From Actinoallomurus purpureus (lineage in GTDB: Bacteria > Actinomycetota > Actinomycetes > Streptosporangiales > Streptosporangiaceae), in assembly GCF_024055795.1 (NCBI RefSeq), contig NZ_JAMXMY010000038.1, positions 1-35,616 on the forward strand: 35,616 nucleotides of DNA. The letters run 5' to 3'. Shown here in pieces: positions 2 to 15,737 of the stretch. A model generated the notes under the pieces. The model was not told the DNA's origin, searched no databases, and was given only the letters and a program-made list of their open reading frames with translations. Positions within the stretch are counted from its first letter, which is position 1. Each line of letters starts with the position of its first letter. The position numbers and the translations under genes were made by a program.

Positions 2-3000
2 AACGGCGACGGCCGGACCACCCCCCGGCCCGGCACCACCCCCGGCCGCCCCGAAGGCCCGGCCGGCAACGGCCCCCGGCCCGGTGAGACCGGCCCAGAG
101 CCCGGACAAGGCACCAGGCCAGGCGAAAACGGCAACAGCACACGACCCGGTGAAGGACCCACCGCCACCAAACCCGACGAAAACGGCAACGGCACCAAAC
201 CCAGTGAGAGGCCTGCCGGCGACCAGCCCCGGCCCGCCGACACACGCGCCACCACGGCCGAGTCCGGCGGCGCGGGCACCGGAGGCGCGCACGCCCCCGG
301 CGGCGCCCCGGTCGTAGGGATCGAGCCCGGTGGGCCAGGGTCCGGGCCCGCCCTCCCCTTGCGTCCGGGCGAGCCCGTACCCGGCGGCACCGGGCCCGCC
401 GAACCGTCGGCGGGGGGCACCGGCCGTGGTGACATCTTCTCGCTCCTGAATGGCGACGGCTCCGAGCGGCCGCGTCCGGCGAGTGCGGGCGCGGGCACCC
501 GGGGAGAGAGCGAGCCGACGGGTTCGTCCGGCCGTCGCGTACCCGCCGCCGAGCCGGGGACCGGTCCCGGCACCGCTCCGGCGTCTCGTACGGAACCGGC
601 CGGGAGCGCGCGGGGTACGACCGGCCCGGAGCGGCCGGTCGGCGGTCGCTCCTCGGAACGCCCCGTCGCCGAGACCCCCGCACGTTCTGGGGACGACGGG
701 ACCGGCTCCGTGCCGTCATCCGAGCGTCCGGCCGACCCGACGAGCGCCGGTGAGCGCCCCACTTCCGAGATCGACAGACTGCTGAACCACTCACCCGAGC
801 GGCCAGGGGAGGAGCCGGGAGAGCCGGGAGATCCGTCCCAGGCGGCACCCGTCGCGATGCCGGATGGCGGCCCCGAGCACGCCGGGCCGGAGGAGCGCCG
901 GACCACGGAGCCGAGCGCGCTCCTGAAGCCGGAGTCGTACGAGGAGGTGGCGCGGGGGATCACCCAACGGGTCGAGTCGCTCGAGGTCGAACCATCACGG
1001 GCGGTCGCGCCGACCTCCCCGGCCGCTCACGAACAGCAGACCTCGCACCCGGTCGGAACGCCGGGCGCCGACGGGGCACACGCCGCCCCCGAGTTGACGG
1101 CCACGCCGCATACGGACGTGCCCGCCCGGGTGCGCGAGCTCGCCGATTCCCTGCGGCGGGACGCGGAGGTCCTCGAACAACGCGTGGCCGCCCACGAGGC
1201 GCAGGCCCGCGAGGCGGGAGAGAAGGCCGAGGCCGCCCTCAGGGAGTCGCAAGACGCCGCGGGTGAGCGTGAGATCGGGGCTCCCGAGCGCAGCGCCAAG
1301 GCCCTCGCCGAGAACGAGTCGGCGTTGCGCGACCAGGCGCGTCACACGGACATCGCCGCGTCCTACCGGAAGGCGCTGGACACGGCCCGTGAGGCGCAGA
1401 TCGGCTACGAGGCGCTGCGGAACTCTCTGGAACACCTCGCCGTGCACGAGCACGCCTCGAAGCTGGAGGCGGAGGTGTCCGCCCAAACTGCCAGGCTGCT
1501 CGCCCATGACGCGCAGAAGCGACTTGCGTCATATGACGACGCGCGGTCCAAGGTGCTGTCGCCGCACCCGCCCAAGTACACCGACTACGGTGCCATCGGA
1601 GACGCCACAGGCGTGAACCGGGTCGAAGTGCCCGCGGACACGCGCGAAGCGGTGCGTGAATGGGCCGCAGACCTCCCCGACTACCTCCCCGAGAAGCTCC
1701 GGGCGGAGATCGAGGAACGCGTCCACGAGATCCTGTCCACCGCGGACCGTGACGTGTGGACCGACTTCCTCCAGAACGGCATCGCCTTCGAATCCCGCGG
1801 CCACCTGGTCTGGCTCAAGCCGCGGCTGGAGTCGCCCACGTACCTCGGCCCCCAAAAGGGCCCGCGGGACTACACCGTCCCGTTCGGCGCCGCCGGAGCC
1901 GGCGCCAAGGAGGCCGGGCACGCGCATCGCGAAGTGACCGGCGGCGACGTCGAGATCGTCGAGAACTCCGACGCCATGGAGATGCTCGGCCTGCCCGGCG
2001 TCAGCGCGGGCAAGGTGTCGGGCGAGGCGCACACCGCCGCCACCGAGGTCATGGCGGGCCACAAGCCGGTGGCGCTCAAGCACGATTTCTTCGACTGGAA
2101 GGTACGCCTCGACGCCCATGTCGACGGTGCCGAGCTGGGCCACGGCGGTCGCCTCCGGGACACCTCGTTGACCGTGCCGATGCCCGAGCAGTTCCATCGC
2201 GAGGGAACACCCGTGACCGGCGGCGACAGGGCGCCCCTGCCGCAGCACCGGGTGCCGTCCGAGCGGGCGGGCGCGGTGCGCAGGCATGACGTCTTCGTCA
2301 CCGCCGTCCAACCCGACCGCCTGGTGACGGAGTTCCAGCGACAGGCCCTGCAGGCGGGCATGTCGCCGCGCCGGGTCGCCGAGATCGTCAACCGCGAGCT
2401 CACCGGCCACATCGGTCAGCAGATCATGCTGAACCGCGGCCGCGACCTGGTGCACGGCGAGCTGACGACACCGAACCTGACCGTCAAGTCGCAGGTGCTC
2501 CGCCTCGAGCACCTGCCCGAGAGCGACACGCCGATCCGCGAGGCGGCGCTGCGCGACGACCAGGGCCTGCTCGCGTCGACCAACGACTCTCACCAGTTCG
2601 GCACCAAGTGGCGCGTGTTCGCCGGCATGAAGCTCGGTATGGACAATCCCGCTGCGAAGTTCTTCGCCCGGATCGGCCTCACCTACCAGAACGGCAAGAC
2701 CCACTTCGTCGCGACCTCCCACACGGCACTGCCGAAGAGCACGTTGGTGCGGAAGGCAGAGGTCGCCCGATACCAGGCGCTCGTACGCATGGAGGTCGAC
2801 GCCGGATTCGGACGCTTTCACGCCGACATTCCGATGGAGTGGGCCGTACGGGCGTCCGACGCTCCACAGTTCGAGCGCGACCTCCTCGGCGCGGTCAGGA
2901 CAAAGGAGCTCGATCGCTCGGTATCCGGTGGGCGGTCCGCCGAGGCGACGCCCGGTGAACTGCCCGCCGGCGAACCGGCCGGGTCGCACGGGCATGAGGC

Positions 3001-6000
3001 GGGTAAGCCGGGCGAGCCGCACGGGCACGAGACCGGTAAGCCGGGCGAGCCGCAGGGACATGAGTCCGCCAAGCCGGCCGAGCCGCACGGGTATGAGACC
3101 GAGAAGTCGCCCGAGCCGCACGGGCATGAACCCGATGAGTCGGCCGGCGGTCGCGAGGTCGCCGTGCCGGGTGCCGGCCCGGTCCGTCCGGCGGAGGTCG
3201 CGCCGCACGAGCCGCATCCGGCGGAACCCGCGCATCTCGCCGCCGGCTGCGGTGCGGGTCTGGGCAAGCTGACCAGGCTGCCGGGAGCCGAACGCGTCGT
3301 GGAGGAGGTCCACGCGGCCATCGACCAGGCCATACCGGACCTTCCCCGGGACGTACGGCGCCAGCTGTGGCGGGATCTCGACGCGCGGTTCGGCCGGTCC
3401 GCCCTCGAAGGACGGTCCCTCGCCGACGTTCTGTACGGCGACCGGCACCACATCACGGTCGGGGGGCGCCGGATCGAGATCTCCCACCACGCCGAGCTGG
3501 GAGAGCGCCGCGGCGTGGACTCGTACGACATGACGGTGAACGACCGGAAGGTCGCCGGATCGGGGACGAGCGTCGGCCGTAACACTTCCGCAGGCGGCGG
3601 CGTGGAGTTCGCGGGGAACATGCGGGTGAAGGCGGGGAAGAGCTTCGGGGTCGACTTCCCGAAGGCCACGGCGCACGCCGGCGTGAACCGTTCGAAGTCG
3701 GTGACCTTCCTCAGCGGCACCACGGAGTACCGCCGGACGGAGACGGACGGGCCGGTCACCGAGATCTCCAAGGAGATGCGCCACCACGTACGGTTGCGCA
3801 TCCAGGACGGCCGCAAGGAGGTCACCGACCGATCCTGGACGGTCGACGGTGAGGACGTCGCCGCGAAGGTCGTCGTGCCGGAGGAGCACCGCCCCGAGTG
3901 GAAGATCACGGCAGACGATCTGCCGGACGTCGGCCGCGTCGACCGGGTGGACGCGGACGCCCTCCCGGACGACCGGATCGACTTCGACGGCAAGACCACC
4001 GCCGTCTTCCCGAGCTTCGTCGCCTCCCGCGACCTGCCGCTCGAGGTGGGACGCGTGGAGGCGGAGCTGACGGGACGACAGGCCCCGGCCGACCTGGCCG
4101 AGGTTCCGGCTGAGATGTTCGATGCTCTGGGGCCGTCGCAGTTGGAGGCGCATCTCGCCGAGCTGACGTCTCCGGACGGCTGGAGGGTCGAGTACACGGG
4201 GGCCGACGGCACCCGCCGCGGCATGACGCTCAGGATGGAGTTCGGCCGGCCCGAGCATGTCGCATCCGGGACCGGTACGGAGATCGAGCACTACCGGATG
4301 GCCAGCTCCCGGATCAAGGACGGGACCGGCATCGACCTCAGGGTGGAGGCCGAGGCGAAGGCCGGTGGCCGGCTGAGCGTGTCGCAGCACTCGGGAGAGT
4401 CCGGGGGGCACGGAGGGATGTCCGGGAAGGGCATCGTGGACGCCGGGCTGTCGATCGAGGCCGACCGCCGGACCGGGCACAGCGAGTACGTCGGCGCCAG
4501 CGACGTCATCCGGGGCACCTACGGCAGCGGGGGACTGACCCACCGGTTCAGCGGCTCGGACGTGCACCTGTCGGTCACGCCCGACGCGCCGGCCGGCGGT
4601 CGGCCGCAGACCGGCCACCTGCGGATAAAGGGTGCCGCCGATTTCATGATGCCGGACCGGATAGCCAAGGATCATCACCTGGCCCCGTCCCCGGAGCACG
4701 CCGAATCGGGGCACGCGTCGGAGGGACCGTCGCCGGAGCACGCCGCGGAATCCTCGCCGGAGGTCGCTCCTCACACCGACGACGGGCCCGTCGTGGCCAA
4801 GCCGGTGAGCGAGCCGCGGACGTACCGGCCCGACGTCGCCATCACGTCCGCCCACGTCGAGCGCTTCGACGGGCGTTCCGTCCTGCCTGAGGTCGAGAGG
4901 GTTCTGCGGGACCGCGGGGTCCTGTCCGGGGACGGCGGCCCGGTCAGATCCCTGCTCCGCGCGGCGTTCGGCGAGCCCGCGCTGGCGGCGAACATGGCGG
5001 GCCTGCGCAAGGGCGTCGTCCAGTGGATCCCGGTCGAGTCGGCCTATGGCTTCACCCGCCATATCGGCGTCCGGGTCCGGGCGGTGCTGGAGAACGGTGC
5101 GCACACGGCCGAACGGCCCGACGTCCAGCACATGGCCCGAGTCCAGGGGCTGAGCGGATCCGACTCGGTGCACGAGAGGGGGGTCGCTCGCGGTGCGGGC
5201 GCGCTCGCGCGGCTGACGGGGCGCGGCGAGGACGGCAGCCTCGGCGGCCAAGTGGGCGGCGCGCGGGTCTCCCGATCCGAGAGCGGGCGCGTCGACGGTG
5301 TCGGAGAGAAGGACATCGACCGGCGCCAGACCCGGGAGGGTTCGCAGGAGTTCACGCACGGCATCCGTTACGAGATCGAGGTCTCCGAGACGAAGGACCC
5401 GCCGCCCGGCCTGGAGCGGGGCGTCGGCGCCATCCGGCGGGCCGCACGCGCGTTCGCGAGGCTGACCGGGAACGATGCCGCCGCGCGGCACTGGGACGGT
5501 CACCGCTCGGTGTGGTCCACGACCGCGACGACCGCGGGCAGCGTACGGCTGGTCGTGCCGGACCATTTCACGACTCCCCTGGGCGAGGGCGAGCACGTGC
5601 CGGGATGGGATCCGGTCGTCGGCGAGCACCCGCGCTGGGCGGACCGTACGGGGCCCACCGAGGCCACCGCGACGCTGCGGGGAATGGTCGGCCGCATCTC
5701 CTTCCCCGGCGCCGAGGTGGTGCACGAGTACGCGCCGATCGCCGCGCAGCCGCCGGAGCACCGCGGCCCGGTGCCCGGCCAGACCGATCGGCCGTCCGGG
5801 TACGAACTGAGCCGGCCGCGCGGCATGGAGCTGTGGGAGAGGACGAACCCGCGCAACCTTCTGGCGCACGTCAAGGAACTGCTCGACCACCAGTACACCC
5901 TTCCGGGCCTTCGACCGGGGGAGAAGGTCACCGTCGGGATGAACGTCGTGGGGCTGCGCGAGGAGGCCGAGGCCCTGCTCAAGCGGCGGGAGTACGTCCA

Positions 6001-6364
6001 GACGGCGACCGGCCACCGGGACGTGTCCGGCCACGGCAAGGAGGTCAGCGGCCGGGGTGGGGGGTCCGGAGGCCCGGCTGGGGACCATGTCGCCCTGCTC
6101 TCCCGCAGTGGCGGACGCGGCTCGGCCGTCGCCCGGGAGGCGGACAGCGTCAACATCCGTGAACGCAACATCGAGGTGACGGACAACAACCACGTCTACG
6201 CCGCGGACGTCATCTTCGTGTTCCACCGCGAGGGCGCCAAGGATCTGCTGGTCGACGTCTCGGAGGCCCTGCACATCCGGCTCACCGAGGACGCCGTCGC
6301 CGAGCTGGAGCGGCTGCACCCCGGGCTGATCCGCGAACCCGTACCCGAGCTCCCGGGCGAGTAG
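2..6364 (+). CDS. Giant repeat-module protein, 5' end outside window
   Basis: The frame is open from the left edge, so the first possible start in the window (TTG at 359) is probably internal and the N terminus is missing. The visible 2,120 residues begin with a Pro/Gly/Glu/Arg-rich low-complexity region (to about 930), then a charged heptad-like coiled coil (about 1110-1530). Three related modules follow, near 1660-2930, 3280-4670 and 4860-6364, separated by Pro/Glu/His-rich linkers. Each module starts with an amphipathic helical stretch and a short beta segment and later carries a hydrophobic VPxxF/H-type motif (about 2168, 3867 and 5548, nearly evenly spaced at about 1.69 kb). I see only one cysteine after residue 120, near 3250. 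I recognise no enzyme or toxin domain. By size and composition it resembles the giant secreted or WXG100-linked proteins of actinomycetes; that is inference. Existence of the gene is near certain, function unknown. Confidence 0.85.
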   Translation, partial: NGDGRTTPRPGTTPGRPEGPAGNGPRPGETGPEPGQGTRPGENGNSTRPGEGPTATKPDENGNGTKPSERPAGDQPRPADTRATTAESGGAGTGGAHAPGGAPVVGIEPGGPGSGPALPLRPGEPVPGGTGPAEPSAGGTGRGDIFSLLNGDGSERPRPASAGAGTRGESEPTGSSGRRVPAAEPGTGPGTAPASRTEPAGSARGTTGPERPVGGRSSERPVAETPARSGDDGTGSVPSSERPADPTSAGERPTSEIDRLLNHSPERPGEEPGEPGDPSQAAPVAMPDGGPEHAGPEERRTTEPSALLKPESYEEVARGITQRVESLEVEPSRAVAPTSPAAHEQQTSHPVGTPGADGAHAAPELTATPHTDVPARVRELADSLRRDAEVLEQRVAAHEAQAREAGEKAEAALRESQDAAGEREIGAPERSAKALAENESALRDQARHTDIAASYRKALDTAREAQIGYEALRNSLEHLAVHEHASKLEAEVSAQTARLLAHDAQKRLASYDDARSKVLSPHPPKYTDYGAIGDATGVNRVEVPADTREAVREWAADLPDYLPEKLRAEIEERVHEILSTADRDVWTDFLQNGIAFESRGHLVWLKPRLESPTYLGPQKGPRDYTVPFGAAGAGAKEAGHAHREVTGGDVEIVENSDAMEMLGLPGVSAGKVSGEAHTAATEVMAGHKPVALKHDFFDWKVRLDAHVDGAELGHGGRLRDTSLTVPMPEQFHREGTPVTGGDRAPLPQHRVPSERAGAVRRHDVFVTAVQPDRLVTEFQRQALQAGMSPRRVAEIVNRELTGHIGQQIMLNRGRDLVHGELTTPNLTVKSQVLRLEHLPESDTPIREAALRDDQGLLASTNDSHQFGTKWRVFAGMKLGMDNPAAKFFARIGLTYQNGKTHFVATSHTALPKSTLVRKAEVARYQALVRMEVDAGFGRFHADIPMEWAVRASDAPQFERDLLGAVRTKELDRSVSGGRSAEATPGELPAGEPAGSHGHEAGKPGEPHGHETGKPGEPQGHESAKPAEPHGYETEKSPEPHGHEPDESAGGREVAVPGAGPVRPAEVAPHEPHPAEPAHLAAGCGAGLGKLTRLPGAERVVEEVHAAIDQAIPDLPRDVRRQLWRDLDARFGRSALEGRSLADVLYGDRHHITVGGRRIEISHHAELGERRGVDSYDMTVNDRKVAGSGTSVGRNTSAGGGVEFAGNMRVKAGKSFGVDFPKATAHAGVNRSKSVTFLSGTTEYRRTETDGPVTEISKEMRHHVRLRIQDGRKEVTDRSWTVDGEDVAAKVVVPEEHRPEWKITADDLPDVGRVDRVDADALPDDRIDFDGKTTAVFPSFVASRDLPLEVGRVEAELTGRQAPADLAEVPAEMFDALGPSQLEAHLAELTSPDGWRVEYTGADGTRRGMTLRMEFGRPEHVASGTGTEIEHYRMASSRIKDGTGIDLRVEAEAKAGGRLSVSQHSGESGGHGGMSGKGIVDAGLSIEADRRTGHSEYVGASDVIRGTYGSGGLTHRFSGSDVHLSVTPDAPAGGRPQTGHLRIKGAADFMMPDRIAKDHHLAPSPEHAESGHASEGPSPEHAAESSPEVAPHTDDGPVVAKPVSEPRTYRPDVAITSAHVERFDGRSVLPEVERVLRDRGVLSGDGGPVRSLLRAAFGEPALAANMAGLRKGVVQWIPVESAYGFTRHIGVRVRAVLENGAHTAERPDVQHMARVQGLSGSDSVHERGVARGAGALARLTGRGEDGSLGGQVGGARVSRSESGRVDGVGEKDIDRRQTREGSQEFTHGIRYEIEVSETKDPPPGLERGVGAIRRAARAFARLTGNDAAARHWDGHRSVWSTTATTAGSVRLVVPDHFTTPLGEGEHVPGWDPVVGEHPRWADRTGPTEATATLRGMVGRISFPGAEVVHEYAPIAAQPPEHRGPVPGQTDRPSGYELSRPRGMELWERTNPRNLLAHVKELLDHQYTLPGLRPGEKVTVGMNVVGLREEAEALLKRREYVQTATGHRDVSGHGKEVSGRGGGSGGPAGDHVALLSRSGGRGSAVAREADSVNIRERNIEVTDNNHVYAADVIFVFHREGAKDLLVDVSEALHIRLTEDAVAELERLHPGLIREPVPELPGE
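2987..3151 (+). repeat. Five tandem 33-bp units coding for 11-residue HGHE repeats
   Basis: Inside the giant gene, five in-frame units of exactly 33 bases begin at 2987, 3020, 3053, 3086 and 3119. They encode variants of HGHETGKPGEP. The first two are nearly identical and the later ones diverge progressively. They form the linker between the first and second modules. The His and Glu content could bind metal, but that is inference. Confidence 0.85.
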
Positions 6365-6415
6365 GAGGTCTTGCGCCCGGCCGCCGACCCTGCCGAGGCC
6401 GTCGTCGGACGCCCG

Positions 6416-7216
6416 TCAGTGGAACCTCGTGAGCACGGCCGCCATGACGGCGAGGGCCTGCCGCCGGGCCGCGGGGTAGGCGAACCGGGTGCCGACCAGG
6501 TTCTTCTCGTCACGTGCGCCCGGCGGATAGTCGGCTCCCCGCCAGGTGACGGTGATGATGACGTTCCGCGTTCGGGCCTCCACCTTGGCGCCGCCCATGT
6601 CATAGCTGCGGGCGGTCGTCTTGGTGGGGCCGGCGAGGATCCGGGTGAACGCCTGCGCCGCGAACGCGTCGTCGCCCAGACCGCCGAGGCGTTCGGGGTC
6701 GTGCTCGTAACCGCCGTTCTCGCTCGTGTCGGCGGCGTACGCGTAGTCGCGGTCGAAGTTCCTGGCCACCTTGGCGGTGCCCGAACCGAGCGAGTCGGTG
6801 TCCTCCCGATCGAAGACGATCTCCAGCGTGCGGGACCGGTCCGAGTGCAGGATCGACCAGCCGCAGGAGTCGCCGCCCCGCAGGGGCTTGACCGACCGCA
6901 CGTCGGACGGCAGCGCGTCGCCCGCCGCCGTACAGGGGTCCGGCAGCGTGGCGTACTCGGGACCGGTGGGACCCGGCGGTGCACTCGACGGGGCGGCGAC
7001 GGGCCGATCGTGGCCCTTGGTCTTGTGCAGCGCGCCGGTCCAGCCCAGGACCACGGCGACGACGGCGGCGATCAGCAGGGCGACGATCCAGGTCCGGCGA
7101 GGACCCGCCGTGGGCCGCACGGGCGCTTCCGGGCGCACGGGGTGTTCCGGCGACGGTGACGCCGCCGGAAGCGGGTCCTCCGGGGGAAGGAACTCGGGTC
7201 TGCCTGGACCGGTCAC
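6416..7216 (-). CDS. Membrane-anchored DUF3558-like protein
   Basis: 266 residues. I chose the GTG at 7216 because AGAGGAG lies five bases upstream; longer readings have no ribosome site. The N terminus is Pro-rich and cytoplasmic, followed by one membrane segment (TWIVALLIAAVVAVVLGW) and an outer domain. That domain has a cysteine pair (DPC near the start, CGW about 35 residues later), a strand pattern and a final TVTW stretch typical of the actinobacterial DUF3558 family, whose function is unknown. The usual lipobox is replaced here by a membrane anchor. It converges on the giant gene (51 bases between stops) and diverges from the STAND ATPase gene, so it may belong with either. The DUF3558 assignment rests on the cysteine/tryptophan pattern only. 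Confidence 0.7.
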   Translation of the reverse strand: MTGPGRPEFLPPEDPLPAASPSPEHPVRPEAPVRPTAGPRRTWIVALLIAAVVAVVLGWTGALHKTKGHDRPVAAPSSAPPGPTGPEYATLPDPCTAAGDALPSDVRSVKPLRGGDSCGWSILHSDRSRTLEIVFDREDTDSLGSGTAKVARNFDRDYAYAADTSENGGYEHDPERLGGLGDDAFAAQAFTRILAGPTKTTARSYDMGGAKVEARTRNVIITVTWRGADYPPGARDEKNLVGTRFAYPAARRQALAVMAAVLTRFH

Positions 7217-7278: not shown

Positions 7279-7360
7279 GATGTGTGCGTAATGCTGCCGG
7301 ACGGTCGCCTTCCGTGAACCATTGGGAGCGCGGGTGGCTGGTGACGGCAGGGGAGCACGA

Positions 7361-9796
7361 GTGGCGGACGATCAGAGTGCGCGGCGGGTGCACGTCGGGG
7401 GGAACGTCAGCGGCCAGGTCGTCGCGGGCGACCACAACCTGCTGATCAACGGGGACGGCACGACCGTCACCGTGCATCATGGCGCGGCACCGCCGGTCCA
7501 GAGGCGCCGCCACCCGGCGGCGCGGGCGCTGCCCCGCCCGGGCGCGCCGCTGTTCGGGCGGGAGACGGAGCTGGCGCGGCTGTCCGGCTTAGTCGACGAC
7601 GGCGTCCCGGTCCAGGTGTACGGGCCGAGCGGGGTGGGCAAGTCGGCGCTGCTGCGCAGGCTGATGGCCGACCGGGCCGCATCGGGGACCGACGTCGTCT
7701 TCCTGCCCGCCGCCGGACTCGACGTCGAGGACATCGTGCAAGAGCTGTTCGACGCCTGCTACGACTCCATCGACTACCGGCCCGAAGCGAACCGGTTGCG
7801 GCGGCTGATGGGGTCCATCCAGGCCCTGATCCTGGTGGACGACTTCGCGGGGTCGGCCGCCGACCTGAAGACACTCCTGGACGCGACCCCGTCCAGCGAC
7901 CTGGTCGTGACCTCGACGGACCGCACCATGGGGAGCGACGGGCGCGCGCTGGAGCTGCCGGGCCTGCCCGAGGACGCCGCCCTGCGACTGGTCGAGGCCG
8001 AGCTGGGCCGGGAGCTGAGCGACGAGGACGCCGGCGCGGCCCGGCGGCTGTGCACGGCCGCGCGCGGTCACCCCCGCGCGCTGATCCAGGCCGCCGCGGC
8101 GACGCGCGCCTCGGGAGCGGGCACCCTGGTCGCCGACGCGGACGCGGTGGCGCGTGCGCTGGCGGCCGGTCTCGACACCGCCGCCCGCACGGCCTTCACG
8201 GCGCTCCGGGCCCTGGCCGGCGTGGCCGTGTCGCAGAGCCTGCTCGGGGCGCTGACCGGCATCCCCGATCCGGCGACGGCCTTCGCCGACCTCCAACAGG
8301 CCCGTCTGGCGGAGCCGGAGGGGGACGGGTACGTCCTGGCGGCCGGCCCCGAGACGCCCGCACCGGACGCCGCACCCGCCGACGCGGCCGGGTTCGCCCC
8401 GCCTCTCGTCGACTGGGTGCGCGTGGCCAGGCCGCGTCAGATCGCCGACGCCGCACCGGTGGTCCTCCGGGTCCTCGGCGCGGCCGTGCGGAGCGGAGCC
8501 GACGAGCCGGCGTGCGCGATCGCCCGCGCCACGGCCCCCGCCTTCGCCCGTACGCTGCGGTGGGGGTCGTGGCGGATCACGCTGGCCCTGGGGCTGGAGG
8601 CCGCACGTGCGCTGGGATCGGCCGAGGACATCGCGTACTTCGAGGGCGAGGAGCGGGCGCGTAAACGGGCCCTGGGCCTGCTCGTCGGCGCGGCCGCCGG
8701 CGGTGCGGTCGGAGCGACCGCGGTCCTCGGACACGGGGCACTCGCGGGCGGGAAGACGGCCGGGGGCGCGCTCGCCGCACACCCCGCGCTGATCGCCGGG
8801 GGCGTGGCGGCGGCGGTGGCCGCGACCGTCATCGGCGTCGCCGTCATCAACACCGGCGACGACCGACCCGCCCGAGGCCCGATCACGACCGTTCCCCAGG
8901 GGAACGTCGCCCCGCCGCCCCCACCGACGGTCAGCCCCACCCATACGCACCGGAGGACCATCGCGGCCCCCGATCTCACGCTGTCGGCCACCACGGTCAC
9001 GTCCGGCGAGCCGTTCACCGCGACGGCCACCGGCTTCCTCCCCGGCGAGCGGGTGCTGTTCGCGCTGTCGTCGGGTGAGTGGGGCAACGGCGGTCCGGGC
9101 TACGAGACCGCGGACTCCTCCGGCCGGGCCGAGCACCGCGTGGAGGGCAGCCCGTCCGCGGGAAAGTGGACGGTCACGGCGTCGGGCTCGACCTCCGGAC
9201 GTCGCGCGGAGGCCGACCTGCTGGTCAGGGCGGCCAAGGGCGTCCGTCTCGTCGCGCCATCCCACGTCGAGGCCGGCAAGCCCTTCAGCGTGACGGCCTA
9301 CGGCTTTCCCTCGGGCTTCCGGGTGGTGGTCACCTGGGTGAACGACGACACGAAGGACAGCGGCGACTTCGGGCCCGACACGGCGAACTCCGACGGCACC
9401 GCGGGCACGTCGACCGCGCGGCTGCAGAATCCCGGGCACTACACGCTCCAGGTCACCGACCCGCGCCGTGGCGATACGGACACCCGGTCCCTGCGTGTCG
9501 ACCCGGCACCGGAGCAGAACCCGCCCGGGCCCGCCGAGCTCGGGTTGTCCACGCCGGCCGTTCGTCACGGTGACAGCTACACGGTGCGCCCGTCGGGCTT
9601 CTGGCGGAACGAGGAAGTGCGCTTCACCTGGACGGGCGACACCAGCGGCCTCATCACCAGCAAGGTGACGGACGACGAGGGCCGCGTCGCTCCGTTCTCG
9701 GTGCACGAGCTCGAACAGCCCGGCGACTACCGGGTGTGCGCCACAGGAACCCGTTCCGGCCGACAGAGTTGCGCTTCGCTGAAGGTGGTCCCATGA
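7361..9796 (+). CDS. Tagged STAND/NB-ARC-like ATPase with C-terminal Ig-like repeats
   Basis: 811 residues from GTG 7361, chosen because AGGGGAG lies six bases upstream; a TTG at 7322 has no such site. Order seen: a Gly/Asp/Asn-rich tag (GGNVSGQVVAGDHN, about residues 10-35); a STAND-type NTPase with FGRE, Walker A GPSGVGKS (about 88), Walker B LILVDD (about 156), VVTSTDR sensor region and GHPRAL motif (about 235); a probable winged helix and helical region; two Ala/Gly-rich hydrophobic stretches (about 437-461 and 473-496); a Pro/Thr linker; then three Ig-like beta domains (about 538-623, 627-716, 724-811) with recurring GFxxGE/F phrases. If only the second hydrophobic stretch spans the membrane, the Ig-like part is outside and the ATPase inside. 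STAND ATPases are regulated switches, often in signalling or defence. The gene overlaps the next by ATGA. Confidence 0.85.
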   Translation: MADDQSARRVHVGGNVSGQVVAGDHNLLINGDGTTVTVHHGAAPPVQRRRHPAARALPRPGAPLFGRETELARLSGLVDDGVPVQVYGPSGVGKSALLRRLMADRAASGTDVVFLPAAGLDVEDIVQELFDACYDSIDYRPEANRLRRLMGSIQALILVDDFAGSAADLKTLLDATPSSDLVVTSTDRTMGSDGRALELPGLPEDAALRLVEAELGRELSDEDAGAARRLCTAARGHPRALIQAAAATRASGAGTLVADADAVARALAAGLDTAARTAFTALRALAGVAVSQSLLGALTGIPDPATAFADLQQARLAEPEGDGYVLAAGPETPAPDAAPADAAGFAPPLVDWVRVARPRQIADAAPVVLRVLGAAVRSGADEPACAIARATAPAFARTLRWGSWRITLALGLEAARALGSAEDIAYFEGEERARKRALGLLVGAAAGGAVGATAVLGHGALAGGKTAGGALAAHPALIAGGVAAAVAATVIGVAVINTGDDRPARGPITTVPQGNVAPPPPPTVSPTHTHRRTIAAPDLTLSATTVTSGEPFTATATGFLPGERVLFALSSGEWGNGGPGYETADSSGRAEHRVEGSPSAGKWTVTASGSTSGRRAEADLLVRAAKGVRLVAPSHVEAGKPFSVTAYGFPSGFRVVVTWVNDDTKDSGDFGPDTANSDGTAGTSTARLQNPGHYTLQVTDPRRGDTDTRSLRVDPAPEQNPPGPAELGLSTPAVRHGDSYTVRPSGFWRNEEVRFTWTGDTSGLITSKVTDDEGRVAPFSVHELEQPGDYRVCATGTRSGRQSCASLKVVP

Positions 9797-10119
9797 GTCA
9801 CTACGAGATGAACATCGACGGGCCGGTCTCCGGGCAGGCGGTCGTCGGGGACGGCAACAACGTCGTCGCGGGCGGATCCACCCTCGATGTGGCGGAGCTG
9901 AAGCGCTTCGCCAAGGCCGCCGCACGGGCGTTGCCCGTCCTGGAGCTGAACGATGAGGGGCGGCGCACCGCGGAGGAGGCGTCCGTGGAGATCCTCGCGG
10001 CGGACGAGGGCGCCGACCACGGGAGGCTCCGCGCGCTCGGCCGGACGCTGCGCGCCGTGCTCGAGGGGGCCGCCGGCGACGTTCTGGCCGCGACCGTTCT
10101 CGGCATCTGGAGTCCCTGA
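9793..10119 (+). CDS. Small tag-sharing partner of the STAND ATPase
   Basis: 108 residues. The ATG at 9793 overlaps the TGA of the ATPase gene, with AGGTGG just upstream, so translation is coupled. The N terminus (NIDGPVSGQAVVGDGNNVV) repeats the VSGQxVxGDxN tag of its neighbour. The remainder is a helical, Ala/Glu/Leu-rich domain of about 70 residues ending in ATVLGIWSP. No catalytic motif, signal peptide or membrane segment is visible. The shared tag and tight coupling suggest that the two products act together, perhaps co-assembling through the tag; this is inference. I do not recognise the helical domain. A longer in-frame reading from 9736 lies wholly inside the ATPase gene and is unlikely. 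Confidence 0.85.
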   Translation: MSHYEMNIDGPVSGQAVVGDGNNVVAGGSTLDVAELKRFAKAAARALPVLELNDEGRRTAEEASVEILAADEGADHGRLRALGRTLRAVLEGAAGDVLAATVLGIWSP

Positions 10120-10139
10120 CCCGCGCGGTCTACAGTCTC

Positions 10140-10184
10140 GGTCACCGGTCCCACTGCAGCCGGATGTCAGTGGGGCCGGTGACC
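10140..10184 (+). terminator. Strong hairpin closing the STAND operon
   Basis: Arms GGTCACCGG-t-CCCACTG and CAGTGGG-g-CCGGTGACC form a 17-bp stem with one T-G wobble and an 11-base loop, 20 bases after the small gene stop. There is no T tract, as is common for actinobacterial terminators. Confidence 0.75.
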
Positions 10185-10288
10185 GGTATGCTCCCGGCGC
10201 CGATCCGGACGAGGCTCCGGCGATGAGCGAGCGCTGTCTCTCCACGCCACGTCCCGTCCATTGACGGCGTTCCGGTGCCGGCCTTACG

Positions 10289-10332: not shown

Positions 10333-11316
10333 ATGCCCGCTGTCGAAACCGTTCGCGGCGCCGTCGACGTCTCGGAACTGGGACGGACGTTGATGCACGA
10401 ACACGTCTTCGTCCTCGCCACCGAGCACGTGCAGAACTACGGCGCGGAGGCATGGTGGGACGAGGAGGAGCGCGTCCGGGACGCGGTCGCCAAGCTGCGG
10501 GCGGCGGCGGCGAAGGGGATCACCACGATCGTCGATCCGACGGTGTGGGGACTCGGGCGGTACATCCCGCGCATCCAGCGGGTCGCCGAGCAGGTGCCGG
10601 AGCTGAACATCGTCGTCGCGACCGGCCTGTACTGCTTCGACGACGTCCCGCACCAGTACGAGCACCGGGGGCCGGGCCTCCTGGTCGACATGCCCGAGCC
10701 GATGGTCGAGGACTTCACGCGCGACATCGTCGAGGGCATCGCGGGCACCGGCGTCAAGGCGGCCTTCCTCAAATGCGTGGTCGAGGCGAAGGGGCTGACG
10801 CCCGGCGTCGAGCGCATCGCCCGTGCCGTCGCCCGTACCCACCGCGAGACGGGCGCGCCGATCACCGTGCACACCTCCAGCGCGACGCAGGCCGGGCGGC
10901 TCGCCGTGGACCTGTTCGGGAAGGAGGGCGTCGACCTGTCCAAGGTGGTCATCGGGCACGCCGGCGACAGCAACGACCTCGACTACCTGATGGCGCTCGC
11001 CGACACCGGCGCGATCCTCGGCATGGACCGGTTCGGGCTCGACGTCTACAACGCCACGGCGGACCGGGTGCGCACGATCGCCGCCCTGTGCGAACGCGGC
11101 TACGCCGACCGGATGGTGCTCAGCCACGACGCGAGCTGCTTCATCGACTACTGGGCCGGCGCCCACGACCAGGTGCGGTCCACGATGCCGAACTGGCAGT
11201 TCGAGCACATCAGCGACGAGGTGCTGCCCGCGCTGCGCGAGCTCGGCGTCTCGGAGGCACAGCTCGACCAGATGCTCGTCGACAACCCGCGGCGGTACTT
11301 CACCCGGGGGGTCTGA
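10333..11316 (+). CDS. Phosphotriesterase-family metallohydrolase (probable lactonase)
   Basis: 327 residues from ATG 10333, with GGGAG eight bases upstream; longer readings would start inside the operator region. The full metal-binding set of the amidohydrolase-fold phosphotriesterase family is visible: HEH (His22, His24), the bridging lysine in FLKC (Lys147), His180 in VHTS, His209 in GHAGDS and Asp266 in SHDA. Most bacterial members hydrolyse lactones or related esters rather than phosphotriesters. The stop overlaps the start of the downstream acyl-CoA ligase (TGATG), and a TetR-type palindrome controls the pair. A catabolic role, opening a lactone to an acid that the ligase then activates, fits but is inferred. 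No signal peptide, so cytoplasmic. Confidence 0.9.
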   Translation: MPAVETVRGAVDVSELGRTLMHEHVFVLATEHVQNYGAEAWWDEEERVRDAVAKLRAAAAKGITTIVDPTVWGLGRYIPRIQRVAEQVPELNIVVATGLYCFDDVPHQYEHRGPGLLVDMPEPMVEDFTRDIVEGIAGTGVKAAFLKCVVEAKGLTPGVERIARAVARTHRETGAPITVHTSSATQAGRLAVDLFGKEGVDLSKVVIGHAGDSNDLDYLMALADTGAILGMDRFGLDVYNATADRVRTIAALCERGYADRMVLSHDASCFIDYWAGAHDQVRSTMPNWQFEHISDEVLPALRELGVSEAQLDQMLVDNPRRYFTRGV

Positions 11317-12854: not shown

Positions 12855-15737
12855 GTGGCAGGTGCGACAGGGGAACTCCAGGGACCGTGGTACCGCATTC
12901 AGGCGATCCTGTCGCCCGAGCACGCCGCCTCGGCGGAGTGGGACTTCGTGACCGTGCTGCCGGCCGTGCTGTCCGCGGCGCAGAGCCGGCGGCCGTTCGT
13001 CGTCGGCTGGATGTCGCGCGGCGGCGGCGCACCGCTCCAGCTGATCACCAACGCCGGGCCCCTGCACCTCGCGCACGACCGGCAGCAGGGGCTGCTGTTC
13101 CCGCACGGCGCGCGCGGCGTCCCGATCGGTGACGAGTGGCTGGACGACGCCGCGGCGATGACGTGGAGCCGCTGCCCCGCCCGGCTCGCGCCGCCGCTGG
13201 CCTCCTCACGGGCGGACACCGGGCCGACCCTGTTCGAGTCGACGCTGGTGACGCTCATGGAGCGGCCGTTCGGCTGGCTCGTCATCGCCGACCAGTGCGG
13301 CGAGCAGGTGCTGCGCGATCAGGTCACCGACCTGCAGTACGAGCTGCAGATGCGGCGGCGGGGCGATGGCGAGCTCGCCGTCGAACGCCTCGAGCGGCGG
13401 CTGGCCGAGCTCGACGCCTTCCAGGAGGCGGGCCTCTGGAACGTCCGGGTCCTGGCGGGGGCCGAGTCGGCGCAGGCCGTCGAGCAGATCGCGCCCGTGC
13501 TCGTCGGCTCCGTGGAGATGAGCCACCACCCGTACCGCCTGCGCTCCGGTGAGCGCGCCGTGCGCTTCCACGAGGCCGTGCACGTGGACACGCAGGACCA
13601 GGATCTGCGGTCGCCGTTCGTCGCGACGGCGGGCGCCCTGGCGGCACTGGCCGGGCTGCCCCGCCGCGAGGTGCCGGGCCTGCGGGTGCTCGACGCCGAC
13701 TACTTCGACGTGACCTCCGAGGTCGGCGGCGAATCGGCGGTGGACGGACCCGGGGTGGCGCTGGGCGCGATCCTCGACGGCCAGGACCGCCGGGTCGGGA
13801 CGTTCACGGTGCCGCTGCAGACGATCAACCGTCACGTCTTCGTCACCGGGTCGACCGGGTCGGGCAAGTCGCAGACCGTCCGGCACCTGCTCGAACAGCT
13901 CACCCGCAGCGGCATCCCGTGGCTGGCCATCGAGCCGGCCAAGTCGGAGTACGCCGCGATGTCGGGTCGTGTCGGCGCGCCCGTCACCGTGATCAACCCG
14001 TCCGACCCCGCCGCCGTGCCCCTCTCGGTGAACCCGCTCGCGCCCGAGCCCGGATACCCGGTGCAGGCGCACATCGACATGGTGCGGGCGCTGTTCCAGG
14101 CGGCGTTCGACGCCGAGGAGCCCTTCCCGCAGATCATGTCGCAGGCGCTGCAACGCGTGTACGAGGCGAACGGCTGGGACGTCGTCACCGGCCGGGGCCG
14201 CCCCGGCTCGCCGATCGAACCCGCCATCCCCACGCTGGAGCAGCTGCAGAACGCCGCCCTCGAAGTGATCGGCGACGTCGGCTACGGCAAGGAGCTGATG
14301 GCCGACGTGAAGGGCTTCGTCGACGTACGGCTCCGGTCGCTGCGCATCGGCTCGGCGGGACGGTTCTTCCAGGGCGGTCACCCCGCCGACATCGAGGGGC
14401 TCCTGAACCGCAACATCGTCCTGGCCATCGAGGACGTGGCGAACGACGAGGACAAGGCCTTCCTGATGGGGACCTTGATCATCCGTATCGTCGAGCACCT
14501 GCGGCTGCGCGCCCGGAGCGGGCGGACCCCGCCCGGCCTCGGGCACGTCATCGTCATCGAGGAGGCACATCGGCTGCTGCGCAACCGCGGGGAGAACAGC
14601 GCGGGCGCGCACGCCGTCGAGCTGTTCGCCGGGATGCTCGCCGAGATCCGTGCGTACGGCGAGGGCATCGTCGTCGCCGAGCAGATCCCCACCAAGCTCG
14701 TCCCCGACGTCATCAAGAACACCGCGCTCAAGGTCGTGCACCGGCTGCCCGCCCACGACGACCGGAGCCTCGTCGGCGCGGCGATGAACCTCGACGACCA
14801 CCAGTCCCGCACGGTGGTGTCGCTGCCTCCGGGCGTGGCGGCCGCCTTCGCGGACGGCATGGACCGCCCGGTGCGGATCCGCGTCCCGCTCGGGCAGGAC
14901 CGCGAGCGCGTGCTGCCCGGCCCGGTCCCGCCGATCGCGGGCCGCCGGTCGGCCGCGTGCGGGTGCGTGTGCCGCGACGGCCGGGCCTGTTCGCTGTACG
15001 AGCTGCGCGAGGCGGATCTGCTCGCGTCGGCGGCGGCATGGGCGTGGCTGCGGGTCTGGGCGGACACCCTGGTCCTGGCGCACGTGACCGACCGTCCGAT
15101 CCCGGCCGCGCCGGCCGACCTCCGCCTCGAATGGGCGGCCCGGCCCGCGCGCCTGCGCGAGTGCATGCTCGCGACCGTCCTGGACCGTGCCGTCGGGCGC
15201 CGCTCAGAGGCGCTGCGCACCGCGTACGCGCCGGAGAAGCTCACCGCGACCGTCGCGGCCATGGCGGACCGGCTGCTCGGCGGTGAGCCCGGTCTGGCGG
15301 GCGTCCGGCCCGGCGCCGACTGGGTGATCCCGCAGCTGCGCTGGCTCCACGAGATGGACCGGCTGTTCCCGCCCGGCCAGGGCGTCCCGGACAAGTACGC
15401 GCCCGCGCCGCCGCTGGACTACGAGCTGCCGGGGCTGCGGCAGCCCGCGGAGCCGCTGTTCGGCCACCGCGTACGGGCGCTGCGCCGCCATTCCCTCTCG
15501 ACGGCCCTGGAGGCGAACCGGCCGATCGCCCGGACGGCGATCCTCGGCGGCGACGACCACGCCGAGTTCGACCGCGACCTCGCCGTGGTCGCGGTCGGCG
15601 TCGACGCCGACGAACGGCTCCGGCACGTCGCCGAGACGATGCGGGCGGCGTGGCTGCCCCACGTGCTCTCCTGGCCCGAACACCTCATCGACGGCTTCGC
15701 CGACCCGGACGGACCCCCGCCCTTTCCCGCCTCCTGA
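12855..15737 (+). CDS. HerA/FtsK-type DNA-translocase-like ATPase with cysteine cluster
   Basis: 960 residues. GTG 12855 is the earliest sensible start, 48 bases after the ligase; no clear ribosome site. The N-terminal 320 residues have no motif I recognise. The ATPase core has Walker A GSTGSGKSQT (about 331-341), the IEPAKSEY phrase common in HerA/DUF87 proteins, DIEGLLNRN, Walker B HVIVIEEAHRLL (about 564-575) and IRAYGEGIVVAEQIPTKL. A compact cluster CGCVCRDGRAC follows (about 701-711) and may bind zinc or mark a processing site. The C-terminal 240 residues are helical and unassigned. HerA-type ATPases are hexameric DNA pumps that usually pair with the nuclease NurA or with defence effectors. 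No such partner is adjacent; the nearest nuclease is a secreted thermonuclease. Cellular role unknown. Confidence 0.85.
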   Translation: MAGATGELQGPWYRIQAILSPEHAASAEWDFVTVLPAVLSAAQSRRPFVVGWMSRGGGAPLQLITNAGPLHLAHDRQQGLLFPHGARGVPIGDEWLDDAAAMTWSRCPARLAPPLASSRADTGPTLFESTLVTLMERPFGWLVIADQCGEQVLRDQVTDLQYELQMRRRGDGELAVERLERRLAELDAFQEAGLWNVRVLAGAESAQAVEQIAPVLVGSVEMSHHPYRLRSGERAVRFHEAVHVDTQDQDLRSPFVATAGALAALAGLPRREVPGLRVLDADYFDVTSEVGGESAVDGPGVALGAILDGQDRRVGTFTVPLQTINRHVFVTGSTGSGKSQTVRHLLEQLTRSGIPWLAIEPAKSEYAAMSGRVGAPVTVINPSDPAAVPLSVNPLAPEPGYPVQAHIDMVRALFQAAFDAEEPFPQIMSQALQRVYEANGWDVVTGRGRPGSPIEPAIPTLEQLQNAALEVIGDVGYGKELMADVKGFVDVRLRSLRIGSAGRFFQGGHPADIEGLLNRNIVLAIEDVANDEDKAFLMGTLIIRIVEHLRLRARSGRTPPGLGHVIVIEEAHRLLRNRGENSAGAHAVELFAGMLAEIRAYGEGIVVAEQIPTKLVPDVIKNTALKVVHRLPAHDDRSLVGAAMNLDDHQSRTVVSLPPGVAAAFADGMDRPVRIRVPLGQDRERVLPGPVPPIAGRRSAACGCVCRDGRACSLYELREADLLASAAAWAWLRVWADTLVLAHVTDRPIPAAPADLRLEWAARPARLRECMLATVLDRAVGRRSEALRTAYAPEKLTATVAAMADRLLGGEPGLAGVRPGADWVIPQLRWLHEMDRLFPPGQGVPDKYAPAPPLDYELPGLRQPAEPLFGHRVRALRRHSLSTALEANRPIARTAILGGDDHAEFDRDLAVVAVGVDADERLRHVAETMRAAWLPHVLSWPEHLIDGFADPDGPPPFPAS

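Follow-up and report, generated by a model that had tools for sequence, protein, structure and literature searches.

A short tag shared by a STAND-type ATPase and its small neighbour in Actinoallomurus purpureus: a probable membrane receptor–partner pair

In the BASS pairs of bacteria a motif at the N-terminus of an NLR protein is repeated on the product of an adjacent or overlapping gene, and TIR and CHAT domains occur as alternative effectors (PMC7889193; here and below, statements about published systems are limited to the portions of each source that are cited). For a Frankia BASS3 peptide whose core reads VGDGNVQIN, the spectra and the Congo red staining were those of amyloid-like aggregates (PMC8086366). 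In EAD coupling one copy lies on a core switch and another on a neighbouring, exchangeable effector, with neighbouring copies being more alike (PMC7159879). The amyloid-motif NLR systems are treated as intracellular switches in the portions of the sources cited. Here we describe two overlapping genes, A and B, in a stretch of 35,616 nucleotides from Actinoallomurus purpureus (assembly GCF_024055795.1, contig NZ_JAMXMY010000038.1; hereafter the window). The window is a complete contig, and the genome, 9.25 Mb in 52 contigs, groups with the actinomycetes by its named relatives. Gene A encodes a STAND-type ATPase with a membrane segment and Ig-like repeats, gene B a small protein, and both products carry the same short tag near their N-termini. 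The shared tag, its uniqueness in the genome, the recurrent pairing, the swapping of partners and the co-variation of cognate tags are observed directly; from these sequence comparisons we consider it probable that A and B form a dedicated unit in which an NLR-like receptor that faces the surface draws in exchangeable effectors through homotypic assembly of the tag, perhaps in an amyloid-like form. The elements of the pair are as follows.

7361..9796, + strand: gene A, 811 aa, STAND-type ATPase bearing the tag, a membrane segment and Ig-like repeats
7388..7447, + strand: tag A, residues 10–29 (VHVGGNVSGQVVAGDHNLLI), from pattern and profile searches
9793..9796, + strand: ATGA start/stop overlap of A and B, 4 bp
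9793..10119, + strand: gene B, small tagged partner, 108 aa, ATG start at 9793
9811..9867, + strand: tag B, residues 7–25 (NIDGPVSGQAVVGDGNNVV), from pattern and profile searches

The start codon of gene A is GTG at 7361 and its stop ends at 9796. Most simply, A and B constitute a two-gene operon, and the ATGA overlap suggests that they are translationally coupled. The tags align as VHVGGNVSGQVVAGDHN and MNIDGPVSGQAVVGDGN with z = 10, a value that none of 5000 shuffles reached. Two ATGA-coupled genes with a common N-terminal phrase were what the earlier note had seen here, and this description is borne out by the 4-bp overlap, by the alignment and by the finding of only two tags in the genome. 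At the 12 core tag positions the residue is identical at eight and the codon at five, and a shared serine is encoded by AGC in one gene and TCC in the other; since the codons differ in this way, a recent duplication of tag DNA was ruled out.

A degenerate DNA pattern for the tag phrase has two matches in the 9.25-Mb genome, at A and at B, and one in seven other genomes of the genus; the reversed control pattern has two across all eight. Likewise, a 27-row tag profile matched only A and B in the window's genome (150 of 157 candidates scored). Because this profile contained both tags, a receptor-only profile was built from 14 receptor tags of other organisms, with neither A's nor B's included (17 were cut, of which P0018, P0023 and P0028, with a longer insert, were left out; P0010, P0012, P0015, P0020–P0022, P0029, P0030 and P0032 stand outside the receptor-tag set). 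It recovered A at 8.5e-9 and B at 1.1e-5, with nothing else at E 0.01 in the window's genome, where 20 of 53 candidates were scored. A sample of 394 genomes of the class, that of the window among them, gave eight positives with this profile; five of these, again including the window's, hold two tags, always 0.4–2.7 kb apart (five of seven with an earlier tag profile), the single-tag genomes being G017 and the weakly matching G189 and G391. Run on 2409 sequences (the frames of 22 loci, L022–L035 and L059–L066, together with B and residues 1–61 of A), the profile matched 39 at E 0.05, and each of these is a receptor with a tag, a neighbour of such a receptor or a frame of L063 or L064. The tag is conserved in 16 of 18 aligned receptors, the other two records beginning C-terminal to it, and three columns of the 14-row receptor-only alignment are invariant. 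Conservation had been fixed beforehand as the check on the tag, and random low-complexity sequence is not supported by it; an origin by chance or low complexity was also rejected by the genome pattern and the profile searches. A lone tag occurs at L063:7549-7968, in a 139-residue frame with no recognised ATPase C-terminal to it.

The pairing recurs. Receptor loci with both flanks visible number 19, drawn from a receptor search of named genomes (14 loci, minus two), the window, four loci found through the tag and two plasmid-collection records; L029 and L030, where the contig ends inside the ATPase gene, lie outside this set, as do L064 (a tag pair without this ATPase) and the single tags of L063, G189 and G391. 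An adjacent tagged gene is present at 17 of the 19, or at 13 of 15 when the four tag-found loci (L059–L062) are omitted. When the first 446 residues of A were compared with the plasmid collection, two records matched, both with a tagged neighbour. One of them, L066:4013-7342, holds a receptor and a B-type partner on a mobilizable linear plasmid of Streptomyces europaeiscabiei, beside Tn3 transposase genes. Within the genus of the window the distribution is patchy, with one of eight genomes, the window's own, being positive. The partner lies downstream of the receptor at nine loci, upstream at five, divergent at two and convergent at one, so that the linkage outlives rearrangement. Its tag is N-terminal in 13 of the 17 partners, B included, and C-terminal in four (L033, L035, L061 and L065).

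The partners themselves are of several kinds. B-type proteins stand at three loci (window, L031 and L066), and a second helical type, ending WFxRxxP...EFxRRF, at seven (L022, L025, L028, L032, L034, L059 and L060; the placing of L025 and L034 is by eye, from their sequences and an alignment). In hhalign the two helical types, I and II, compare at 93% with the tag and at 46% without it, so that they may or may not be one family. A helical partner with a C-terminal tag occurs at three loci (L033, L035 and L065), a TIR partner at one (L061; Pfam TIR_2, 5.6e-14) and a bivalent adaptor at two (L024 and L062). The remaining partner, at L023, we take to be cyclase-like; a Pfam search of it found nothing, nor did a search of solved structures up to E 1. 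The adaptors are short. At L062 a 100-residue partner bears the tag and a second motif, and the frame after it, 115 residues long and hydrophobic at its N-terminus, has a similar second motif at its end (z 5.4). At L024 the second motif of a 76-residue partner, which we presume to be BASS1-like, is similar to the N-terminal end of an NB-ARC/TPR protein of another genome, at L064 (z 8.3); the gene that follows this adaptor, presumably cyclase-like, shows no similarity to it (z −0.7). The motif comparisons for L062 and for L024 with L064 were chosen after the sequences had been seen. Locus L064 also contains, at 4346-6731, a 674-residue frame, membrane-like by eye and without a Pfam match. A tag close to the C-terminus of this frame is similar to that of an overlapping small frame (z 13), a pairing without this ATPase family, and the NB-ARC/TPR protein with its other N-terminal motif lies nearby.

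Cognate tags co-vary. Across the 17 cognate pairs the sum of tag scores lies above all 50,000 permuted pairings (p 2e-5), with p 4e-5 when one Nonomuraea pair is kept and 8e-5 when none is; an earlier test on 11 pairs had given p = 0.007, or 0.02 without L033. Co-assembly through the shared tag, as put forward in the earlier note, gains strength from this co-variation and from the swapping of partners, a TIR effector among them, and recruitment of the partner by means of the tag appears highly probable.

Gene A and the region behind gene B contain the following further features.

7349..7355, + strand: Shine–Dalgarno-like AGGGGAG 5' of gene A, read from sequence
7547..8110, + strand: ATPase core, residues 63–250 (end approximate), from Pfam AAA_16 and family alignment
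7622-7645, + strand: Walker A of gene A, GPSGVGKS, read from sequence
8111..8665, + strand: conserved region between ATPase core and membrane segment (LRWGAWR..LG..AA..LG...D..YF..E), from family alignment
8669..8731, + strand: weaker Gly/Ala-rich hydrophobic stretch, residues 437–457, from hydropathy
8792..8848, + strand: membrane segment, residues 478–496, strongest hydropathy window of A
8966..9226, + strand: Ig-like repeat 1, residues 536–622
9239..9499, + strand: Ig-like repeat 2, residues 627–713
9533..9793, + strand: Ig-like repeat 3, residues 725–811
9880..10116, + strand: presumed helical domain of B, residues 30–108, with hydrophobic Trp-containing C-terminus, from alignments and hydropathy
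10139..10185, no strand: 18-nt inverted repeat with 11-nt loop just 3' of B, possible terminator

The P-loop ATPase core of A is matched by a curated profile (Pfam AAA_16, 33 bits against a cut-off of 32.6), and LILVDDF, besides the Walker A motif, can be read directly in its sequence. Among the named STAND clades in Pfam, nSTAND6, nSTAND1, NACHT and NB-ARC all remained under their cut-offs for A; in its relative P0017, NACHT is over the cut-off (28.1 against 26.7). The three C-terminal repeats of 87 residues are mutually homologous (z 9–11). Their Pfam signals are weak in A (PKD 0.14, Big_3_5 0.74) and Big_3_5 is over the cut-off in P0017; it is on these matches together that the repeats are called Ig-like. 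A search of solved structures with the family of A gave at most weak P-loop and other matches. A STAND ATPase joined to a membrane segment and three Ig-like domains, as the earlier note had described A, agrees with the AAA_16 match, the hydropathy and the three homologous repeats, the Ig-like signal being weak in A itself.

In an alignment of 18 receptor homologues the tag, the ATPase, the region ending LRWGAWR...YF..E and the hydrophobic segment are all conserved and the part C-terminal to the segment is variable; a variable region behind constant tag, ATPase and segment is what a sensor would show. Domains over the cut-off in relatives are PASTA (P0014), Big_3_5 (P0017) and fn3 (P0018, P0022 and P0026), every one of them C-terminal to the hydrophobic segment. 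Ig-, fn3- and PASTA-like domains are usually extracellular in actinomycetes, which favours a single-pass topology of A with the repeats outside as the likelier arrangement, although not a certain one. For the trans-membrane sensor proposed earlier, the PASTA, fn3 and Ig-like domains found behind the segment in relatives speak in its favour, and the single pass is the part that stays less than certain.

The domain of B, of about 80 residues, is presumed to be helical from its sequence. Conserved in its alignment are ALPVL.L, DHGRLR..GR.LR and a hydrophobic tail with W. Only three relatives of B were found at E 0.001 among 5.8 billion proteins, all from JGI; a search of the plasmid collection with B gave no match at 1e-3, a search of genome contigs with its alignment found no relative, and a search of solved structures with the helical domains gave nothing below E 0.05. 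A B-profile search of the 394 genomes, with 12 candidates scored per genome, returned the window and four others, and those four are without this tag. The domain has more distant relatives among small proteins and at the C-terminal ends of longer proteins, with other linkers that are often rich in Asn and Gln. No Pfam or NCBIfam family was over its cut-off for B and no PADLOC family was found, so that a known Pfam or NCBIfam identity was rejected; DUF7553 recurs as a sub-threshold match in B and in P0003–P0005. At L043:4455-6601 a different P-loop frame overlaps a small protein that has a B-like helical domain together with another Asn/Gln-rich linker. A T-run scan was negative for the inverted repeat 3' of B.

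Taken together, these features suggest the following working model. A would be a membrane protein whose tag and STAND-type ATPase face the cytoplasm and whose Ig-like repeats lie outside. Once a ligand had bound there, the ATPase would oligomerise, as is expected from the STAND family, and oligomerisation would cluster the N-terminal tags and nucleate a β-rich, probably amyloid-like assembly of the BASS/RHIM type. This assembly would recruit and activate B through B's own copy of the tag. The most likely role of B would be that of a small helical protein executing the response at the membrane or close to it, or alternatively that of an adaptor. The receptor family is paired with TIR, cyclase-like or relay-adaptor partners in relatives, so that the tag is a fixed connector and the output changes with the partner. 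For the amyloid-like state of the assembly the chances seem to us about even, and action of B at the membrane is a tentative proposal. We hold with similar reserve the broader view of a prion-like signalosome at the bacterial cell surface, with a transmembrane NLR-type receptor that senses an outside ligand by exchangeable Ig/fn3/PASTA-like arrays, signals to interchangeable cytoplasmic effectors by templated polymerisation of its RHIM-related tag and is served in some lineages by bivalent adaptors (L024 and L062) that convert one amyloid code into another.

Several observations weigh against this reading of A and B as receptor and partner. Two similar Streptomyces loci are without a tagged neighbour (L026, with 1.7 kb covered downstream, and L027, with 4.5 kb). 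The tag of the L031 receptor was missed by the receptor-only profile (E 2.5) and was detected only with a profile that included it, and several partner tags match weakly (L025, 0.005; L034, 0.0015; L033, 0.033). The co-variation falls to p 0.03 when the three odd-tag loci and the two Nonomuraea loci are left out, and shared ancestry of neighbouring genes can add to the signal. Moreover, the window's own pair shows no notable likeness between its two tags; B ranks only 12th of 17 for A, and specificity in this genome may therefore come from the uniqueness of the tag and not from a private code. A second, upstream hydrophobic stretch, similar to the weaker one of A, occurs in 14 of 26 receptor relatives (by our own count from hydropathy), so that a membrane hairpin is possible. 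The hydropathy of B peaks at 1.46, under the threshold of 1.6 used for A, and shows no clear transmembrane helix. The tags of A and B resemble the BASS3 peptide weakly (z about 2; median of the tags 1.95, best 5.3), and the [IV]Q[IVLC]G tetrad of RHIM is present in one of 26 tags, that of the L031 receptor, where it lies outside the core. The company kept by the small protein, which the earlier note had set as a check, does not refute the pairing but is not wholly in its favour: B-type proteins with this tag adjoin the ATPase at all three loci with visible context (window, L031 and L066), a count that is biased because L031 and L066 were found through the ATPase, and where the helical domain occurs more widely, joined to other linkers, neither this ATPase nor the tag was present in eight of eight loci (11–13 kb inspected at each; G109, with the chance-looking frame of L011, and G639, with L020, were left out).

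These points bear differently on the alternatives. The one that survives best, although we think it less likely than an executor role, is that B is a regulator or adaptor, i.e. a cap, inhibitor or co-assembly factor, with the output in another protein or in A itself. The helical domain also ends longer proteins (L009 and L010, about 300 aa) and occurs with other linkers in L012 and L015–L019, bivalent adaptors exist in the family (L024 and L062), and B is without a recognised enzyme domain or clear membrane helix. Against it, the 27-row profile found no further tagged protein in the genome among the 150 of 157 candidates that were scored, so that an adaptor B would need its helical domain to reach a further partner.

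It is also conceivable, but unlikely in our view, that the tag is a non-amyloid contact, such as a short β-solenoid rung or an exchanged strand, that docks B on A with no templated growth. The tag core is rich in Gly and β-branched residues, the RHIM tetrad is missing from it, and one partner has a weak match to MinC_C (0.07, under the cut-off), which is a β-helix. However, the tag core resembles the BASS3 peptide, and the logic of a STAND N-terminus, a neighbouring gene and a TIR partner matches that of the amyloid-motif systems as portrayed in the cited portions of PMC7889193.

Equally improbable, in our estimate, is that A is a membrane-anchored STAND regulator of envelope physiology or development, with B as its signal-transmitting subunit. 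Relatives carry PASTA and fn3 C-terminal to the membrane segment, domains that often recognise ligands of the cell wall or surface, and no known defence model matched A or B; the patchy presence in the genus (one of eight genomes), the TIR partner and the plasmid pair beside Tn3 genes (L066) nevertheless fit a role in conflict better. Lastly, that the shared tag reflects mere common descent of neighbouring N-termini or low complexity, with no functional link, is suggested by its being short and Gly/Val-rich but is very improbable, since different partner types have only the tag in common with the receptor, the tag can stand at either terminus, the order of the genes varies, the codons are not the same, and the retrieval of neighbours and little else by a receptor-only profile already contradicts it.

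The surroundings of the pair in the window comprise, upstream, a 2001-aa open reading frame (359-6364) in which stretches resembling GKPGEPHGHE recur and for which no Pfam family matched at 0.001 and, downstream, genes of ordinary metabolism, with a phosphotriesterase-family protein (10333-11316) followed by a frame that is AMP-ligase-like by eye. A 960-aa ATPase of the HerA/DUF87 type (12855-15737) lies 2.7 kb downstream of B.

If the reading of A as a receptor that recruits B through the tag is true, a sensor outside and a motif inside would allow a bacterium to trigger prion-like signalling from its surface. The swapping of partners behind one conserved tag amounts to a natural experiment, in which the tag alone should set who is recruited, and the bivalent adaptors of 76 and 100 residues suggest relays in which distinct motif families are connected. 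A short-tag receptor with outer Ig/fn3/PASTA domains and bivalent adaptors was not found described in the portions of the literature examined, to which the BASS source paper does not belong; titles and beginnings of abstracts, from a body that takes in few subscription papers, mention no tagged transmembrane receptor of this kind, and a literature search with letter strings of the tag found nothing.

The closest likeness is to the BASS 1–10/Bell pairs (Dyrka et al., 2020), which have in common with A and B a short motif at the N-terminus of a STAND/NLR protein and an adjacent or overlapping gene product, as well as TIR among the alternative effectors and occurrence in filamentous bacteria according to the cited portions of PMC7889193. 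Unlike these pairs, receptors of the A family carry Ig/fn3/PASTA-like domains C-terminal to a membrane segment, the tag lies mostly at the partner's N-terminus, as in B, and not at the effector's C-terminus, the tag core is without the Q-hydrophobic-G tetrad, and bivalent adaptors occur. The BASS effector is a Bell domain with a transmembrane helix; B has its hydropathy peak at 1.46 and no Pfam family over cut-off. The notion that the system works like an amyloid-motif NLR pair is supported; in the window the effector has no C-terminal motif and the tag core no RHIM tetrad. With RHIM, BASS3 and fungal PP the tags share a hydrophobic-G-x-x-N core, found in 26 of 26 (which were chosen as tags) as in the Frankia peptide VDLRDAKGVQVGDGNVQINRF; in most tags the Gln lies two residues earlier than in the RHIM tetrad.

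Among known anti-phage systems, no PADLOC family (0) matched A or B. The Avs and bNACHT proteins sense phage proteins inside the cell. Both resemble A as STAND ATPases with a variable C-terminal sensor, and differ in having fused N-terminal effectors (PMC10907252, cited portions), the effector of A being supplied in trans and its sensor probably lying outside. A cytoplasmic switch with parts predicted to be outside the cell is also seen in GAP1-N2 and EACC1 (Kaur et al., 2020) and in the periplasmic C-type lectin STAND/NACHT proteins (PMC10907252); these use other switches or hypervariable lectin sensors, the portions cited mention no short shared tag, and they are a partial precedent for a surface-facing switch. 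The EADs are small domains, often with many copies per genome, whereas the tag here has about 25 residues and was found only twice. As with A and B, EAD coupling places a copy on the switch and a copy on the neighbouring effector, with neighbours more alike (Kaur et al., 2020), and in the portions cited its logic of recruitment is the same as that proposed here, with domains in place of a short tag.

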